A stretch of 64,000 nt of DNA, taken from the NCBI RefSeq assembly GCF_014656135.1, contig NZ_BNBV01000007.1, positions 124,001-188,000 of the forward strand, read 5' to 3'. Under the pieces are notes generated by a model. That model had not been told where the DNA came from. It searched no databases and saw nothing but the letters and a program-made list of their open reading frames with translations. Numbering within the stretch: the stretch's first letter is position 1; every line of letters begins with the position of its first letter. Positions 43,401 to 50,105 of the stretch are shown here, piece after piece. The position numbers were made by a program, and so were the translations under genes. This DNA comes from Streptomyces thermodiastaticus (GTDB taxonomy: Bacteria; Actinomycetota; Actinomycetes; Streptomycetales; Streptomycetaceae).

Positions 43401-43723
43401 CAGCGGCTCCGCCGGCGACCCCGGACGCCGGGGAGGCCTCCGCCCGGCCGGACGGAGGCGTGCGGCCGGACGGAGGCGTGCGGCCGGACGGAGGCGCGCG
43501 GGGCGCGGGAAGCCAGGTGAGGCCGGCGCGGGTGAGGTGCGCACGGCGGCCGGGAACTCGCCGTCACATGACAGTTCCGTCTCCGTTTCTCACTCCTGAC
43601 GCGGGCCACTACGCTGAGCGCTTCGGGGGGCCTCACCCCGTGTGGCCCCACGCGGCGGGATTCGCCCGCCACCCCAGGACCGACCCGACCGGCCCACCCG
43701 AGAAGCGAAGCGCCCCGACGTGA
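43397..43723 (+). CDS. Possible 108-residue protein coupled to the dehydrogenase gene
   Basis: A GTG overlaps the dehydrogenase stop (GTGA) and opens a frame of 108 codons. The first part has three copies of a six-residue RPDGGV/A unit, caused by the 18-bp tandem repeat at 43445-43498; the second part starts MTVPSPFLTPDAGHYAERFG. No family is recognised. The overlap is suggestive, but the sequence could also be non-coding. Confidence 0.3.
43445..43498. repeat. 18-bp tandem repeat, three copies
   Basis: CGGCCGGACGGAGGCGTG at 43445-43462 and 43463-43480, and with a one-base change at 43481-43498. Confidence 0.8.
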
Positions 43724-43766: not shown

Positions 43767-44720
43767 GTGAGCACGCCCCGTACCGCCCCCGAGTCCTCGC
43801 CGGCCCCGGCCACCGCCCTGGGACCCGGTGGAACTCCCCGCCCCTCGGGGCGGTTCGGCTCCCTCGGTCCGGTCGGCCTGGTGTTCGCCGGCGGTGTCTC
43901 GGTGCAGTTCGGCGGCGCGCTGGCGGTGAGCCTGATGCCGCGCGCGGGTGCGCTCGGCGTCGTGACCCTGCGGCTGCTGGTGGCCGCGATCGTGCTGCTC
44001 GCGGTGTGCCGGCCCCGGCTGCGCGGGCACTCGCGCGCCGACTGGGGCACGGTCGTCGTGTTCGGCGTCGCGATGGCCGCGATGAACGGCCTCTTCTACC
44101 AGGCCGTCGCCCGCATCCCCCTGGGCCCCGCCGTCACCCTGGAGGTGCTCGGCCCGCTCGCCCTGTCCGTGCTGGCCTCCCGCCGGCTGATCAACGTGCT
44201 GTGGGCGGGGCTGGCGCTGTGCGGGGTGTTCCTCCTCGGCGGCGGAGGCTTCCGCGGTCTGGACCTCGCCGGTGTGGGTTTCGCGCTGGGCGCGGGAGCC
44301 ATGTGGGCGGCGTACATCGTCTTCAGCGCGCGGACCGGGCGGCGCTTCCCGCAGGCCGACGGGCTGGCCCTGGCGATGGCGGTCGGCGCGGTGCTGTTCC
44401 TGCCGCTCGGCATCGCCGAGTCGGGGACGAAGCTCGCGGACCCGACGACGTTCGGGCTGGGTGCGGCGGTGGCGGTGCTGTCGTCCGTGCTGCCCTACAC
44501 CCTCGAACTGCTCGCGCTGCGCCGCCTGCCCGCCTCCACCTTCGCGATCCTGATGAGCCTGGAGCCGGCCATCGCCGCCACGGCCGGGTTCCTGGTCCTC
44601 GGCCAGTCCCTCGTGCCGTTGGAGGTCGTCGCGATCGCCTTGGTCGTCGTGGCCAGCATGGGCGCGGTGCGGACGCAGGCCGGGCGGGGCGCGCGATCCC
44701 GCGCGCCCCGCGACTCCTGA
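43767..44720 (+). CDS. EamA/RhtA-type exporter
   Basis: 317 residues. Two EamA halves with ten membrane helices: GLVFAGGVSVQFGGALAVSL, MNGLFYQAVARIPLGPAVTLE and, in the second half, LPASTFAILMSLEPAIAATAGFL. RhtA-like proteins export threonine, homoserine or related metabolites. GTG at 43767. It lies some 366 bp after the dehydrogenase and is probably transcribed from its own promoter near 43590-43620. Confidence 0.88.
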   Translation: MSTPRTAPESSPAPATALGPGGTPRPSGRFGSLGPVGLVFAGGVSVQFGGALAVSLMPRAGALGVVTLRLLVAAIVLLAVCRPRLRGHSRADWGTVVVFGVAMAAMNGLFYQAVARIPLGPAVTLEVLGPLALSVLASRRLINVLWAGLALCGVFLLGGGGFRGLDLAGVGFALGAGAMWAAYIVFSARTGRRFPQADGLALAMAVGAVLFLPLGIAESGTKLADPTTFGLGAAVAVLSSVLPYTLELLALRRLPASTFAILMSLEPAIAATAGFLVLGQSLVPLEVVAIALVVVASMGAVRTQAGRGARSRAPRDS

Positions 44721-44790
44721 CCGCCGGCGCACGGGTCACGGGGGCGACGCCCGCAGCCCCGCGCCCGCGCCGGGCACATCTCGTGCGCAC

Positions 44791-44862
44791 GCGCTCGGTG
44801 CGGCTGCGGGGCCGTATGGCGCGCTCGGTGCGGCCGCGGGGCCGTATGGCGCGTTCGGCGCG
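44791..44862. repeat. 30-bp tandem repeat, two copies plus a partial one
   Basis: Units at 44791-44820 and 44821-44850 differ at one base; a partial third (GCGTTCGGCGCG) follows. Each begins GCGCTCGGTGCGGC and ends GGGGCCGTATGGC. It lies between the 3' ends of the convergent EamA and citrate synthase genes. Confidence 0.8.
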
Positions 44863-44884
44863 AGGCCCTCCCGCCCGGTCCGGC

Positions 44885-45985
44885 TCAGTGCGCGATGTGG
44901 TCGTACCCCGGGACCTCCCGCAGGCTGCGCGGGCCCGGACCCACGTAGCGGGCCGTGGGGCGCACCAGACGGCCGGTCCGCTTCTGCTCCAGGATGTGCG
45001 CCGACCAGCCCGCGGTGCGCGCACAGGTGAACATCGAGGTGAACAGGTGCGCCGGCACCTCGGCGAAGTCCAGCACGATCGCCGCCCAGAACTCCACGTT
45101 GGTGGCCAGCACCCGGTCCGGGCGCCGGTTGTGCAGCTCCTTGAGGGCCGCCTTCTCCAGTGCCTCGGCCACCTCGAAACGCGGCGCGCCCAGCTCGCGG
45201 GCGGTGCGGCGGAGCACCCGCGCCCGCGGGTCCTCCGCCCGGTAGACCCGGTGACCGAAGCCCATGAGCCGCTCACCGCGGTCCAGCGCCGCCTTGACGT
45301 AGCCCTCCGCGTCCCCGGTCCGCTCGATCTCCTCGATCATGCCCAGCACCCGGGAGGGCGCCCCGCCGTGCAGCGGACCGGACATCGCGCCCACCGCTCC
45401 GGACAGGGCCGCCGCCACGTCCGCGCCGGTGGAGGCGATGACCCGGGCGGTGAACGTGGAGGCGTTCATGCCGTGCTCCGCGGCCGATGTCCAGTAGGCG
45501 TCCACGGCCGCCACATGCTTCGGGTCCGGCTCCCCGCGCCAGCGGATCATGAACCGCTCGGTGATGGTGCGGGCCTTGTCGATCTCCCGCTGGGGCACCA
45601 TCGGCAGCCCCTGCCCGCGCGCCGACTGGGCGACGTAGGACAGCGCCATCACCGCCGCCCGGGCCAGGTCCTCGCGGGCCTGCTCGGCGTCGATGTCCAG
45701 CAGCGGTTTCAGCCCCCACACCGGCGCCAGCATCGCCAGCGCCGCCTGGACGTCCACCCGTACGTCACCCGAGTGGACGGGGATCGGGAACGGCTCGGCG
45801 GGCGGCAGCCCCGGGTCGAAGGCGCCGTCGACGAGCAGCCCCCACACGTTCCCGAAGGAGACGTGACCCACCAGATCCTCGATGTCGACGCCCCGGTACC
45901 GGAGGGCGCCGCCCTCCTTGTCCGGTTCGGCGATCTCCGTCTCGAACGCGACGACTCCCTCGAGTCCGGGCACGAAATCGGACAT
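44885..45985 (-). CDS. Citrate synthase family protein (second-type)
   Basis: 366 residues. Catalytic set of citrate synthases: His in GPLHGGAPSRV, His in FGHRVYRAEDPRA and Asp in VLDFAEVPAHLF. Length and sequence fit the short, secondary citrate synthase-like proteins of streptomycetes rather than the main CitA, so condensation of acetyl- or propionyl-CoA with oxaloacetate (methylcitrate route) is possible. The ATG at 45985 has GAGGAG about 8 nt upstream. It is divergent from pdxH. Confidence 0.9.
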   Translation of the reverse strand: MSDFVPGLEGVVAFETEIAEPDKEGGALRYRGVDIEDLVGHVSFGNVWGLLVDGAFDPGLPPAEPFPIPVHSGDVRVDVQAALAMLAPVWGLKPLLDIDAEQAREDLARAAVMALSYVAQSARGQGLPMVPQREIDKARTITERFMIRWRGEPDPKHVAAVDAYWTSAAEHGMNASTFTARVIASTGADVAAALSGAVGAMSGPLHGGAPSRVLGMIEEIERTGDAEGYVKAALDRGERLMGFGHRVYRAEDPRARVLRRTARELGAPRFEVAEALEKAALKELHNRRPDRVLATNVEFWAAIVLDFAEVPAHLFTSMFTCARTAGWSAHILEQKRTGRLVRPTARYVGPGPRSLREVPGYDHIAH

Positions 45986-46306
45986 CAGGCGGCTCCTCGT
46001 GGTCGGTGCGGCAGATGGTGCGTGCGCTGGACGACGACGGCCCAGTGCCGGCGGGTCGGGAATGCGGCGGTGTCGGTTGCGTGGGATGTGCAGGCCCGAG
46101 CGGTCCGCGGTCGCGTACACCGGCGCGCGGCCCGGGACGGTACCTGAGTGGGTGCCCCGCACGGCCGGCGCTCACCCGGCCGGAGACGGGAGCAGCACCA
46201 TAACCCCGGGTGCCACGATTGAGGAGGCTCTTTGACACCCGGTGCCAGGCGTGAGACGGGACACCTCTGCCGCCGGGCGCCGCCGGGCATGGGGCAAGAT
46301 GACCGC
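45986..46306. other. Divergent region between citrate synthase and pdxH, 321 bp
   Basis: No gene supported. It contains a pair of CC(C/G)GGTGCCA direct repeats at 46206-46247 and TTTGACA at 46231-46237. Confidence 0.5.
46206..46247. promoter_or_regulatory. Direct repeats CCGGGTGCCA / CCCGGTGCCA, period 32
   Basis: CCGGGTGCCA (46206-46215) and CCCGGTGCCA (46238-46247) are on the same face, three turns apart, flanking TTTGACA (-35-like). They could bind a regulator controlling pdxH or the divergent gene. Confidence 0.35.
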
Positions 46307-47038
46307 GTGACCGCTCCAGACGCCGGAACACGAGACACCGGACCGCGCGACGTCCGGGACGCCGAAACAGCGCGGGCGCGGGAGACCGCGCCGTTCGACC
46401 TGGCCGCCATGCGGAAGCACTACCGTGCGGAGGGCCTGACCGAGGCGGACCTGGCCGCCACCCCGGTGGAGCAGTTCGCCCGCTGGTTCCGGCTGGCCGC
46501 CGCGGAGGCGCACCTGTTCGAGCCGAACGCCATGGTGGTCTCCACCGCCGACGCCGAGGGCCGGCCCAGCTCCCGCACCGTCCTGCTCAAGCATTTCGAC
46601 GAGCAGGGCTTCGTCTTCTACACCAACTACGGCTCCCGCAAGGCCCGCGACCTCGCCGAGAACCCGTACGTCTCGCTGTTGTTCCCCTGGCACCCCATGG
46701 CCCGCCAGGTCATCGTCCAGGGCGTGGCCCGCCGCACCGGACGGGACGAGACCGCCGCGTACTTCCGCACCCGCCCGCACGGCTCCCAGCTGGGCGCCTG
46801 GGCCAGCGCCCAGTCGACGCTGATCGCGAGCCGGGCGGAACTCGATGCCTCCTACGCCGCCCTGGCCGCTCGCTACCCGGAGGGCGAGCAGGTCCCCGTC
46901 CCGCCGCACTGGGGCGGCTTCCGGGTCGTGCCCGAGTCCGTGGAGTTCTGGCAGGGACGGGAGAACCGCCTCCACGACCGTCTGCGCTACGTCGCCGGAC
47001 CGGACGGCGGCTGGCGCGTGGAGCGGCTCAGCCCCTGA
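46307..47038 (+). CDS. pdxH: Pyridoxamine/pyridoxine 5'-phosphate oxidase PdxH
   Basis: 243 residues. It oxidises pyridoxamine or pyridoxine phosphate to pyridoxal phosphate with FMN. Family markers are [50 protein letters not shown] and the C-terminal [21 protein letters not shown] with the substrate Arg. The start is GTG at 46307; an ATG at 46289 in the same frame is possible. There is a 25-residue variable N-tail before the conserved [10 protein letters not shown]. Confidence 0.95.
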
Positions 47039-47071
47039 ACCGCGGACCCGGGACCGTTCTGTGCACGCAGA

Positions 47072-47142
47072 CGGCCCGCGAGCTGGGTCCTGGCGCCTGG
47101 GGCGCAAGGAGCCGGCCGGACGTACCGGCAGCTCGCGGGCCG
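47072..47142. terminator. Long inverted repeat after pdxH
   Basis: CGGCCCGCGAGCTG (47072-47085) and CAGCTCGCGGGCCG (47129-47142) are exact complements enclosing 43 nt that contain further short hairpins (GCGCC-TGG-GGCGC; CCGGCCGG). It can terminate pdxH and the leftward short unit. Confidence 0.65.
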
Positions 47143-47221
47143 GGTGACTGCTTGGGATTGGGCCGGCTGCACGCACGGAACACGTGCTGGTCCGGCACCG
47201 CACTCGGTGGGTGACGGGCCG

Positions 47222-47260
47222 CTAGCCCGCAGCCACCTCACGCGTCCGGTAGTCATACAT
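47222..47260 (-). CDS. Candidate 12-residue peptide MYDYRTREVAAG
   Basis: ATG at 47260, AAGGGAGG ribosome binding site about 11 nt upstream, and a promoter (47293-47322) that would give a 26-nt leader. The peptide ends at TAG 47222-47224. It is too short for domain analysis. It may be a leader peptide, a signal peptide or a chance frame in a small RNA. Confidence 0.35.
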   Translation of the reverse strand: MYDYRTREVAAG

Positions 47261-47292
47261 CTGCCGAACCACCTCCCTTCTCGTGTACCGCC

Positions 47293-47322
47293 ACCCTAGG
47301 AACCGCTCCGGCAGCACTTCAA
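47293..47322 (-). promoter_or_regulatory. Consensus-like promoter for a short minus-strand transcript
   Basis: On the minus strand TTGAAG (47322-47317) and TAGGGT (47298-47293) are 18 nt apart, a very good match to the vegetative promoter. It lies over the stop codon of the PAS gene and points away from it, toward the 12-residue ORF and the 47072-47142 hairpin. Confidence 0.55.
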
Positions 47323-48758
47323 CCGCTTTTCTCCGCGTCCGCGCTCCGAGCCAGGTCCAGGGCGGCGGCGACATGCGCGGCGACGTCCTCGGCGTGGGCG
47401 GTGTCGCCGCGGTCGAAGGGGGAACGGCTGGGGCCGCGCAGGAAGGTGAGGACCCCGAGAGTGCGGCCCCGGCTGCGCAGCGGAGTGCACAGCGCGTGCA
47501 CGGTCTCCGCCGGCCATTGGCAGGCCAGGGCCCAGGAGCGGGCGCGGTCGGCCGTCGCCGTGCCCGCGCCGGCCCGCACGGAGGAGCCCCGCTCGACGCA
47601 CTGCAGGGCGGGGTGCCCCTCCCCGTAGCCGACGGGCAGGCCCGCGCGGCCGGTGACCACGCTGGGCCCGGCACCGGTGGCCGGGGTGGCGGCGACGCGG
47701 ACCAGCCGCACCGGTGTCCCCTTCGCGCCGTCGCCCGGCGGTGCCGGGCCGCTCACCCGGTCCAGCAGGGCGTGGTCGGCGAACCCGGCCAGCGCGAAGT
47801 CGAGGTGGCAGGTGGCGGCGTCCAGCGGGTCCTCGCACTCGGCGGCGACCCGGACGGCGCGGTGCAGCTGCTGGGTGCGGAACCGCAGCAGCGCCGCCTC
47901 CTGCTCGGCCTGCCTGGTGTCGGTGACGTCGGTGAACAGCCAGGCCACCCCCAGCGGAACCGGTTCTTCCGCGAGTGGGGACGACAGCCGGACGAAGCCG
48001 CTGCGCCAGCAGCGGCGCCGCTCGCCCTCCGGGCCGCGCACCCCGACCCAGATCTCCGCGGGCGCCGGCGGCGCACCCTCCGCCAGGACGTGGGCCAGCG
48101 CGCTCTCCAGTTCCTCCACCCCCCGGCACAGCAGATCGCCCAGCGGGCGGCCGAGCGCGGCCGTGCGGCCGACGCCGAGGGCGCGGGCCGCGTGCGCGTT
48201 GACGACGGCCGGCCGCAGATCGGCGTCGACCAGGACCACGCCCCAGGAGGCGTCCTCGAACAGCGCCTCGCTGAGCGCGATGGACCGCTCCAGGTCGATC
48301 TGCGCGTGCACCTCGCTGAAGGCGCAGTACACGCCCGCGGGCGTGCCGTCGGGACCGCGCACGGCCGCGGACTGGGTGCGCACCAGGACACGGCGGCCGT
48401 CCTTGGTGACCAGCGCGAACTCGTGCACCTGGCGGCCGGGCGCGTGCATCGCCGACATCAGCCGCCGCTCGACCTCCTCGGCGTCCGCGCTGCGCACCGC
48501 CCATCCGGCGAAACCGTGCCGGCCGACCGCCTCGGCGGCGCTCCAGCCGAGGATGCGCTCGGCCTCGCGGTTCCAGTGGGTGACGGTGCCCTGCGCATCG
48601 AAGGCGCACAGCGCCGCGTCCATGCCGTCGAGAAGGGCGGCGAGCAGATCGGCGCCGGCACCGTCGGCCGCGCCGGCGGCGTCCTGTCCGCCCGGGCCGC
48701 GCTGCTCCCGCGGTCCGGCACGGTCGTCCGCGGCTCCACTGCGCCGGGAAGCACTCAC
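47319..48758 (-). CDS. PAS-domain signalling protein
   Basis: 479 residues from the GTG at 48758 (GGGGG 5 nt upstream; the ATG at 48821 in the same frame has no such site). Two PAS domains: LLAALLDGMDAALCAFDAQG with THWNREAERILGWSAAEAVGR (about 38-75), and ASWGVVLVDADLRPAVVNAH (about 165-185). The C-terminal 200 residues resemble a GAF domain (CTPLRSRGRTLGVLTFLRG). There is no kinase, phosphatase or HTH, so it is a sensor or adaptor. Located 240 bp downstream of the SIS gene on the same strand. Confidence 0.8.
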   Translation of the reverse strand: MSASRRSGAADDRAGPREQRGPGGQDAAGAADGAGADLLAALLDGMDAALCAFDAQGTVTHWNREAERILGWSAAEAVGRHGFAGWAVRSADAEEVERRLMSAMHAPGRQVHEFALVTKDGRRVLVRTQSAAVRGPDGTPAGVYCAFSEVHAQIDLERSIALSEALFEDASWGVVLVDADLRPAVVNAHAARALGVGRTAALGRPLGDLLCRGVEELESALAHVLAEGAPPAPAEIWVGVRGPEGERRRCWRSGFVRLSSPLAEEPVPLGVAWLFTDVTDTRQAEQEAALLRFRTQQLHRAVRVAAECEDPLDAATCHLDFALAGFADHALLDRVSGPAPPGDGAKGTPVRLVRVAATPATGAGPSVVTGRAGLPVGYGEGHPALQCVERGSSVRAGAGTATADRARSWALACQWPAETVHALCTPLRSRGRTLGVLTFLRGPSRSPFDRGDTAHAEDVAAHVAAALDLARSADAEKSG

Positions 48759-49000
48759 CTGAACCCCCACTGCAGGCTGCGTCCGCACGTACGGTGCGCG
48801 GATCCGCTCACTGGCCATCATTCAACGCGAACGTGACGCAGCGCACACCGGGTTCCCTGAGATCGGCCGGCTCTCACCGCACCGGGCCCGCCGGTGCCGC
48901 GCCGCCGTGTGCCGTGTACCCGTCACGGCGGGTCTCACCACGGGGGCTGCGGCCGCGGGTGCGCGCCGGGTCGGGCGCGGGTGCGGGCCGGCCCCCTGCG

Positions 49001-49110
49001 GTGCCGGCAGAAGACGCGGTCAGTGCCGGCGGAAGACGCGGTCAGTGCCGGCGGAAGACGCGGTCAGTGCCGGCGGCAGACGCGGTCAGTGCCGGTAGAA
49101 GATGCGGTCC
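49001..49110. repeat. 22-bp tandem repeat, five copies, grown from a gene's 3' end
   Basis: Units begin at 49001, 49023, 49045, 49067 and 49089, each GTGCCGGYRG followed by (A/C)AGA(C/T)GCGGTC. The fifth unit is coding (last residues of the SIS protein) and the stop lies at the junction with the fourth. The other units repeat that end plus stop on the downstream side. Confidence 0.85.
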
Positions 49111-49841
49111 GCGTACTGCTCGAAGACGCGGGCGTTCCACTCGTGGCCGCCGTCGACGTTGCCGGAGCGCAGCAGCGGCGGCTCGATCCCGCGGTCGGCG
49201 AGGGTGCTCGCGGCGGTGGCCAGGACGGCCTGCAGCAGGGCCGAGGTGACGACCGTGGAGGCGGGGGCGAAGGGCGCGGCGACGCCGTCGAGGGTGAGTT
49301 CCGCGTCGCCGACCGCGATCTTGGAGTCGAGGACGAGGTCGCAGTGGTCCTTCAGGAAGGTGCCCGAGGAGTGCCGCGAGGTGGTCTCGGCGGCGTAGGC
49401 GACGGAGGTCACGCCGATCACCTTCACGCCCCGCGCGCGGGCGCCGAGGGCCATCTCCACCGGCAGGGCGTTGCGCCCGGAGAGCGAGACGACGATCAGG
49501 GCGTCGCCGGAGCGCAGCGGTGAGCTGTCCAGGACGGCGCCGGCCAGCCCGTCGACGCGTTCCAGGGCGGAGCCCAGTGTGGCGGGCACGACGTCGACGC
49601 CGACGGCGCCGGGCACGGCGAGCAGGTTCATCAGGGCCAGGCCGCCGGCGCGGTAGACGACGTCCTGGGCGGCGAGGGAGGAGTGTCCGGCGCCGAAGGC
49701 GAACAGGCGGCCGCCGCCGGCCACGGTGTCCGCGAGCAGGGTGCCGGCCGCCGCGATCGCCTCGGCCTCCTCGTCGCGGACCCGCCTCAGCAGCCCGATG
49801 GCCGCGTCGAGATAGCGGCCGGCCGGTGTGCGCTCGCTCAT
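49086..49841 (-). CDS. SIS-domain phosphosugar-binding protein (UPF0309-like)
   Basis: 251 residues. SIS fold with LFAFGAGHSSLAAQDVVYRA (about 46-65) and VVSLSGRNALPVEMALGARA (about 118-137). This subgroup has a first loop GAGHS and is annotated as UPF0309 or sugar isomerase domain; it probably binds an N-acetyl-hexosamine phosphate. The ATG at 49841 has GGAGGG 6 nt upstream. It is divergent from dmdR1. The 3' end is part of a 22-bp repeat array. Confidence 0.85.
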   Translation of the reverse strand: MSERTPAGRYLDAAIGLLRRVRDEEAEAIAAAGTLLADTVAGGGRLFAFGAGHSSLAAQDVVYRAGGLALMNLLAVPGAVGVDVVPATLGSALERVDGLAGAVLDSSPLRSGDALIVVSLSGRNALPVEMALGARARGVKVIGVTSVAYAAETTSRHSSGTFLKDHCDLVLDSKIAVGDAELTLDGVAAPFAPASTVVTSALLQAVLATAASTLADRGIEPPLLRSGNVDGGHEWNARVFEQYADRIFYRH

Positions 49842-50105
49842 GGGATCCCTCCGGGTGCCGGGCCGCGGCGCCGGTGCCGCGTGCCGCCGATCACGGTGGG
49901 CTCCGCGCCGGAGCGCTGTCAAGAGGCCGCGTCCCGGCCGGCCGCCGGGAGGGCGGGCAACCGGAGGCCGGGGCTCCGGGCCCGCGATCCCCCGGGCTTG
50001 CGCGGGACGCCTCGATTGTCGGCGGGATGCGTCAGAATTGAAGACAGGGCCAGCGCACGCGCCGGAAGCGGTCGAGCCTCCGGCAGAGGTAATCGAGGGG
50101 CACGG

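Follow-up and report, generated by a model that had tools for sequence, protein, structure and literature searches.

Within about 250 bp on the minus strand, the DNA of Streptomyces thermodiastaticus studied here carries a promoter, a ribosome site, a 12-codon open reading frame (ORF) and a 14-bp inverted repeat, and the question is what kind of gene can be so small. The window, meaning the whole stretch of DNA that was analysed, has a length of 64,000 nucleotides, and all positions given below are counted in it. An earlier note on this DNA had proposed a self-contained short transcription unit that fits no annotated family and that may be a small regulatory RNA or a signalling peptide. We compared the locus with its homologues in order to find which of these it is.

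Family assignment and occurrence

We identified with cmscan a match to the Rfam family RF02471 (Ms_IGR-5) at 47286..47066 on the minus strand, with 92.9 bits against a gathering cut-off of 45 and over the full model (1-184), and the Rfam scan gave no other match above cut-off in the whole window. The statement that no annotated family fits was therefore wrong. In a lax Rfam search lin-4 also appeared, with 20.3 bits against a cut-off of 40, and was taken as chance. We infer the 5′ end of the RNA (47286) from the start of the Rfam model together with the −10 box.

The genome of this strain has one RF02471 match. The family was found in 38 of 41 genomes, this one included, in 249 of 394 genomes within the class (247 above cut-off) and in 70 of 396 genomes across the phylum (35 above cut-off). 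Copy number is nearly always one per genome; second matches were present in G504 and G738 and, at 27.6 bits and so below cut-off, in G035. A pattern scan of named genomes matched at least 120 stretches, and among the matches listed were Streptomyces, Mycobacterium, Nocardioides, Nocardia, Cellulomonas, Kitasatospora and Pseudonocardia.

For comparison, 176 homologues were used, which are part of all matches: 76 loci from genome searches and 100 stretches picked from match lists, many of these chosen for family spread. They were placed with a profile on the 5′ 70 nt. The class-level set contains 136 loci, 134 of them unique over 110 nt, and includes L056 and L058, which came from the phylum search and stand outside the class. 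The deep set consists of 40 loci, no two alike, which the phylum search had supplied.

Expression of the family has been described in several actinobacteria. In the available parts of the respective papers, Ms_IGR-5 of S. lividans is listed as SLIV_16488 with RNA-seq validation ‘yes’ (PMC8079986), the family is one of two Rfam-matching sRNA units among 139 in S. avermitilis (PMC8780764), and IGR-5 of M. smegmatis overlaps ncMSMEG15794c (PMC10454040). Ribosome reads on MS_IGR-5 homologues were reported in M. abscessus and M. smegmatis, and the same authors cautioned, in the part available, that non-coding RNAs too can give ribosome-protected fragments (PMC4974804). The transcripts scr2736 and scr4389 are named in the available part of PMC8388888, from which no tie of either to the Ms_IGR-5 locus could be made, and the available parts of PMC5521070 and PMC11678152 gave no mention of the RNA. 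A literature search, covering mainly openly available papers, found no published account of the short ORF or of a function.

Transcription signals

The promoter TTGAAG-N18-TAGGGT claimed by the earlier note is present at its place on the minus strand (Table 1), and the −35 box shares bases with the stop codon of the PAS/GAF gene that lies upstream. A generic sigma-70/terminator scan of 44000-50000 gave no site of either kind. Among the class-level homologues the promoter is above chance: all 134 loci have a TAnnnT that precedes the RNA start by 4-9 nt (control windows 0.002), and TTGnnn-N16-19-TAnnnT was found in 116/134 (control 0.0001). In the deep set, TAnnnT occurs at this distance in 16/39 loci (control 0.009) and the full pattern in 0 of 39 testable homologues. 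It means that the promoter is conserved in the class and is not recognisable as such in the deep loci.

At the 3′ end, the two arms of the 14-bp inverted repeat pair perfectly. Their interior is 43 nt with a nested hairpin, and there is no T-run here. Among the homologues, TTTT occurs 40-170 nt past the CACC anchor in 23/133 class-level and 13/34 deep loci. The repeat itself was thus rightly described before, and its role as terminator is likely and no firmer than that, given the long interior and the lack of a T-run.

The RF02471 match, the class-conserved promoter and the RNA-seq data for the family in two Streptomyces support both the self-contained transcription unit and the small regulatory RNA of the earlier proposal. 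The locus is best explained as Ms_IGR-5, a small RNA of actinobacteria that has its own promoter and is transcribed alone.

Table 1. Features of the Ms_IGR-5 locus in the window, in the order of transcription.
Feature	Position	Strand	Basis or remark
−35 element TTGAAG	47317..47322	-	sequence; 18 nt before −10
−10 element TAGGGT	47293..47298	-	sequence
Small RNA, Rfam RF02471 Ms_IGR-5	47066..47286	-	cmscan; putative 5′ end
P1 5′ strand CACG	47282..47285	-	pairs with 47242-47239
Extended Shine-Dalgarno AGAAGGGAGGUGGUUC	47266..47281	-	16-nt complement (G-U allowed) of 16S rRNA 3′ end
P1b 5′ strand GUUCGG	47264..47269	-	with 47249-47244 encloses start codon; overlaps extended Shine-Dalgarno
12-codon ORF MYDYRTREVAAG + stop TAG	47222..47260	-	start, stop and frame conserved
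CCGGAC (from codon 4, third base, to codon 6), pairs in P1b and with P3 loop	47244..47249	-	
P1 3′ strand CGUG (codon 7 + first base of codon 8)	47239..47242	-	covariation
GAGGUG (codons 8-9), Shine-Dalgarno-like, 9 nt before stop	47234..47239	-	invariant
P2 5′ strand GGUGGCUGC (from codon 8, third base, to codon 11)	47229..47237	-	covariation
P2 3′ strand GCAGUCACC	47143..47151	-	directly before 3′ hairpin
Inverted repeat 5′ arm, 14 bp, terminator-like	47129..47142	-	perfect pairing with 3′ arm
P3 loop GUCCGG in nested 3′ hairpin	47116..47121	-	pseudoknot with CCGGAC 47249-47244 (codons 5-6)
Inverted repeat 3′ arm, 14 bp	47072..47085	-	perfect pairing with 5′ arm

Secondary structure

The locus shares with the Rfam RF02471 model a full-length covariance-model match above the curated cut-off. 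In the structure given by Rfam, codons 10-11 pair with GGUGGU of the Shine-Dalgarno (SD) region, the region of the stop codon pairs with a strand in the middle of the RNA, and the arms of the 3′ inverted repeat pair around the nested hairpin. Its first helix (GGUGGU with codons 10-11) showed no covariation over 132 rows, with 693/792 cells paired against a shuffle mean of 693.2; membership of RF02471 is left intact by this, because the family is defined by score. Alignment of the homologues points instead to three pairings that covary, P1, P2 and P3, and all of them, like the further pairing P1b and the ORF, are absent from the Rfam model.

For P1, 504/536 cells were paired at class level (shuffle maximum 467) and 155/160 in the deep set (shuffle maximum 124), with shuffles that, as in all tests below, ignore relatedness. 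The combinations include CACG/CGUG, CUUC/GAAG, CGUA/UACG, CCAG/CUGG, CGUG/CACG and CGAG/CUCG.

P2 uses the same codons as the first helix of Rfam, yet it covaries. Its 3′ strand, CAGUCACC, usually lies about 50-80 nt downstream of codons 8-11, and was found with a profile locator in 167/174 rows (missed: L100, L129, L133, L135, L157, L160 and L161), where a stricter earlier locator had found it in 54/134. Over 10 bp and 131 rows, 1230/1310 cells were paired, against a shuffle maximum of 1180 and 365-808 when the strand was slid by 1-3 nt. As the locator prefers CACC, which fixes pairs 1-4, pairs 5-10 were retested alone and gave 706/786 cells (shuffle maximum 653). A GAAUCC-like stretch, at 47159-47154 (minus strand) in the window, is loosely conserved before this strand in many homologues.

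P1b is nearly invariant in its 4-bp core (501/528 cells, a value reached by 48 of 1000 shuffles), and its 5-bp form gave 598/660 cells with a shuffle maximum of 589. P1b and P3 share CCGGAC and are therefore mutually exclusive.

For P3, GUCC was present within the segment in all 126 GGAC rows, in 120 of them inside the hairpin picked by the script, and AUCC was found in the loop of 4 of 5 GGAU rows, two of which hold GUCC elsewhere too. The Fisher test gave 0.0012 with the hairpin filter and a presence count, and 1.8e-5 in the raw table, which mixes stem and loop bases. The flanking base was paired in 75/130 rows (shuffle maximum 66). In the deep-branching rows L124, L176 and L056, CGACC goes with GGUCG. 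Four homologues (L133, L135, L157 and L165) are short versions of the RNA, seemingly without the P3 hairpin and with a simple hairpin after the CACC-like strand.

The window RNA folds more stably than its shuffles (z −3.78). The minimum free energy (MFE) structure of this single sequence contains neither P1 nor P2 and has −122.8 kcal/mol, against −118.4 kcal/mol with P2 enforced; ensemble probabilities were 0.001 per pair for P2, 0.0 for P1 and about 0.04 for P1b. Either these pairings form with tertiary or ribosomal help, or else they alternate with the MFE structure.

Ribosome binding

Directly after the P1 5′ strand, the leader is complementary to the 3′ tail of 16S rRNA. The tail sequence used was found in 15 of 16 relatives and is absent from the draft assembly of the window. 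With G-U pairs allowed, a complement of 15-16 nt is present in 129/134 class-level and 40/40 deep homologues; Watson-Crick pairs alone make runs of 7-16 nt across homologues. The predicted duplex has −24.6 kcal/mol, against −9.2 for AGGAGG alone.

A 15-nt pattern of this complement had 2 matches in the 6.1 Mb assembly of the strain, the second of them antisense to a likely coding frame, and a backwards control pattern also had 2. Each of 16 other genomes had 1-11 matches, with 0-8 for the control. The sRNA was among the matches in 14 of these 16 relatives (not in G005 and G012), and in 5 of them (G077, G113, G424, G070 and G160) it was the only match after the complements of the 16S genes themselves were removed. 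Because the backwards control is equally frequent in the own assembly, the sRNA site stands out by its place and conservation and not by pattern counts.

Such a site could make the RNA a ribosome trap or decoy, in which the 16S complement and the second SD-like GAGGUG hold 30S subunits or post-termination ribosomes and so titrate them. The strength of the predicted duplex, the recurrence of the pattern in the sRNA of most relatives and the invariant GAGGUG agree with this. We nevertheless consider a trap unlikely: it leaves the covarying pairings P2 and P3 with the 3′ half of the RNA unexplained, it requires high RNA abundance, and the genomes other than these five have further non-rRNA matches to the pattern, to be read beside the control counts given above.

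Short open reading frame

The 26-nt leader (47286-47261) with AAGGGAGG (47279-47272), the ATG at 47260, the reading frame and the TAG ending at 47222 are all present as the earlier note had them. Among the unique class-level sequences the mini-ORF is conserved. ATG, GTG or TTG stands exactly 21 nt before the invariant GAGGTG in 130/134, and an in-frame stop follows in 134/134 (TAG 113, TGA 13, TAA 8) with no internal stop. In the 132 twelve-codon rows the codon 21 nt before GAG is TTG in 56, ATG in 56, GTG in 18, CTG in 1 and ATT in 1; in L056 and L058 the start is one codon earlier and is TTG. Elsewhere between offsets −30 and −12, no position has NTG in more than 7/134 rows, except −17 with 41. 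TTG is as frequent as ATG at this start (56 against 56 of the 134 class-level loci), which is far above the TTG frequency of actinobacterial genes.

The distance from SD to start varies from 6 to 11 nt in one-base steps, with 8, 9 and 10 nt in 34, 64 and 33 loci, while the distance from start to GAG is 21 nt in 132/134 and 24 nt in 2/134. It means that one-base insertions or deletions are seen before the start and not after it.

In the deep set, the ORF has 10-15 codons. ATG, GTG or TTG is present at the start in 20/40 and a near-cognate codon only (CTG, ATT, ATC or ATA) in 19/40, and L117 has neither these nor ATG, GTG or TTG at the start position. The class set is the stronger evidence, as the deep set was read with several near-cognate codons admitted. 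The start codon of deep homologues is often CTG, ATT or ATC. In L133, L135, L157 and L165 the distance from GAGGTG to the stop is shorter by one base, and the shifted stop closes a frame that is open from an upstream TTG, or from ATT in L133.

The RNA might still be purely non-coding, its apparent ORF (NTG, SD-like stretch and stop) being a chance resemblance within an RNA structure or a protein-binding site. The wobble bases fixed in codons 8 and 9, and nearly so in codon 12, agree with this reading, as does the position of the ORF, which lies largely in covarying pairings; footprints on non-coding RNAs can also be artefacts, according to the available part of PMC4974804. Such a reading is improbable in our estimate, for a start mixed from TTG, ATG, GTG, CTG and ATT and stops of three types follow codon logic and not base logic, and the frame between them is unbroken by any length change. 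We conclude that the mini-ORF is very probably translated, and the sRNA contains, like a dual-function RNA, a conserved translatable ORF.

Coding potential of the 12 codons

Conservation of the frame raises the matter of the peptide. Entropies at codon positions 1/2/3 were 1.46/1.66/1.10 bits for codon 2, 1.57/1.72/1.68 for codon 3 and 1.39/1.66/1.66 for codon 4, so codons 2-4 have no excess of variation at the third position. GAG GTG is found at codons 8-9 in 132/132 rows with both wobble bases fixed; GAGGTG served as the anchor of the script, and the motif is present in all 176 loci. Codon 12 varies at position 1, and its position 3 is almost always C. As the third position is not freer in codons 2-4 and the wobble is fixed in codons 8-9, the consensus of residues follows the RNA. 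The frame-preserving insertions and deletions together with these codon statistics suggest that start, stop and frame are selected and that the peptide is not.

What the earlier note expected of relatives was therefore found in part: promoter and ORF are kept in the class, and the peptide sequence is not. The signalling peptide that it suggested is unlikely on sequence comparison and was rejected on codon statistics, as codons 2-4 vary alike at all positions, the other residues track RNA pairing, and the four deep homologues with another register relative to GAGGTG would give an unrelated peptide. Direct reading of the 12 residues found no export signal and no hydrophobic segment, and neither a conserved mature peptide, as expected of a signalling-peptide gene, nor the residue-level conservation of a functional peptide in a dual-function RNA was seen.

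The function might nevertheless reside in the 12 residues, acting for instance as a signal, since E-V never varies and the motif T-[RC]-E-V-[AT]-[AV] is found repeatedly in the class. We regard this as very unlikely, because residues 2-4 are unconstrained, residues 5-7 and 10-11 lie in covarying pairings, codon 12 changes its first base and keeps its third, the register shift in the deep homologues replaces the residues by unrelated ones, and a secretion signal or hydrophobic segment is missing from the 12 residues. The ORF peptide is probably a by-product.

Genomic context

With a simple ORF caller, the first gene downstream of the RNA has the opposite orientation in 101 of the 176 loci and the same orientation in 63, and none was called in the other 12. 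Within the 14 largest clusters of neighbours, no same-strand downstream family recurred in more than 9 loci. An opposite-strand pdxH-like gene lies downstream in 25 loci (the window and 24 others), and neighbours differ elsewhere. Without a widely conserved same-strand downstream gene, the RNA appears to be free-standing. The short ORF, the alternative pairings and the terminator-like hairpin resemble an attenuator, but a role in cis, as leader or attenuator of a gene downstream, is highly improbable and was rejected on these neighbourhoods, in which no same-strand downstream gene is widely conserved.

Some other features were observed around the locus. The PAS/GAF gene (47319-48821, minus strand) is on the same strand as the RNA, while the other 24 loci of the cluster have its counterpart in the orientation opposite to the RNA, and this difference suggests a local inversion in this strain. 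A 22-bp tandem array at 49001-49109 (5 copies, 93% matches) overlaps the 3′ end of an SIS-domain gene, which ends at 49086. Tandem repeats also flank the EamA transporter gene, at 43445-43501 (18 bp, 3.2 copies, 97%) and, on its other side, at 44790-44862 (30 bp, 2.4 copies, 93%).

Possible function and comparison with known systems

We give about even chances to the reading that Ms_IGR-5 is a stand-alone sRNA and that a ribosome on the mini-ORF gates its folding, where gating and targets are our extrapolation. At first, the long complement of the 16S tail, which is observed, would capture a 30S subunit. Initiation would then follow on the short ORF, whose start codon is often weak: TTG, joined in the deep branches by CTG, ATT and ATC. 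Comparison of the homologues lends translation good support, consistent with the published mycobacterial footprints, and the weak start codon may serve as a test. The ORF would largely be held, judging from covariation, in P1 with the 5′ end, in P2 with the downstream strand and in P3 with the loop of the 3′ hairpin. From the geometry, a 30S subunit paired along the full complement would disrupt P1b and so make codons 4-6 available to P3, and a ribosome in elongation would have to open P1, P2 and P3. Because these pairings overlap the ORF, occupancy by the ribosome would set whether the 3′ half, with the P2 3′ strand and the GUCC loop, is closed or exposed. At last, the translation-gated RNA would act in trans.

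Going further, the RNA could be a phylum-wide sensor of initiation, in which 30S docking, a test by an often weak start and mutually exclusive pairings (P1b against P3, and also P2), which would hide or expose the 3′ half, report the outcome in trans; we offer this tentatively, as a possible but rather doubtful extension. If it were true, the 16S-tail complement would be among the longest in the genome and would belong to an attenuator-like device without a downstream gene.

Some known systems share parts of this arrangement. SgrS/SgrT is a dual-function RNA, a stand-alone small RNA with a short ORF and its own ribosome site. VcdRP/VcdP has the same features according to the available part of PMC8672173. 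In both of them the peptide is a product, whereas the residues of Ms_IGR-5 are not conserved as a peptide. The leader-peptide attenuator and attenuator-derived sRNA rnTrpL/peTrpL of S. meliloti also has a short ORF overlapping alternative pairings and then a hairpin. Ms_IGR-5 differs from it by the lack of a conserved downstream gene and of a run of regulatory codons, and by its independent promoter. Long pairing with the 16S tail as an initiation device is known from the extended SD of S. aureus (available part of PMC13009471), but in Ms_IGR-5 the complement has 15-16 nt, precedes an ORF of 12 codons and is conserved throughout the homologues of a single RNA.

This RNA is present in most of the class genomes searched (249/394) and in other classes of the phylum, and has had a family name with no function described in the papers covered. 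Conservation of start, stop and frame while the peptide is free to vary, the long complement of the 16S tail and the three covarying pairings now lead to a testable hypothesis on the sensing of ribosome status, for which the analysis of the pairings and the ORF gives the exact positions to mutate.
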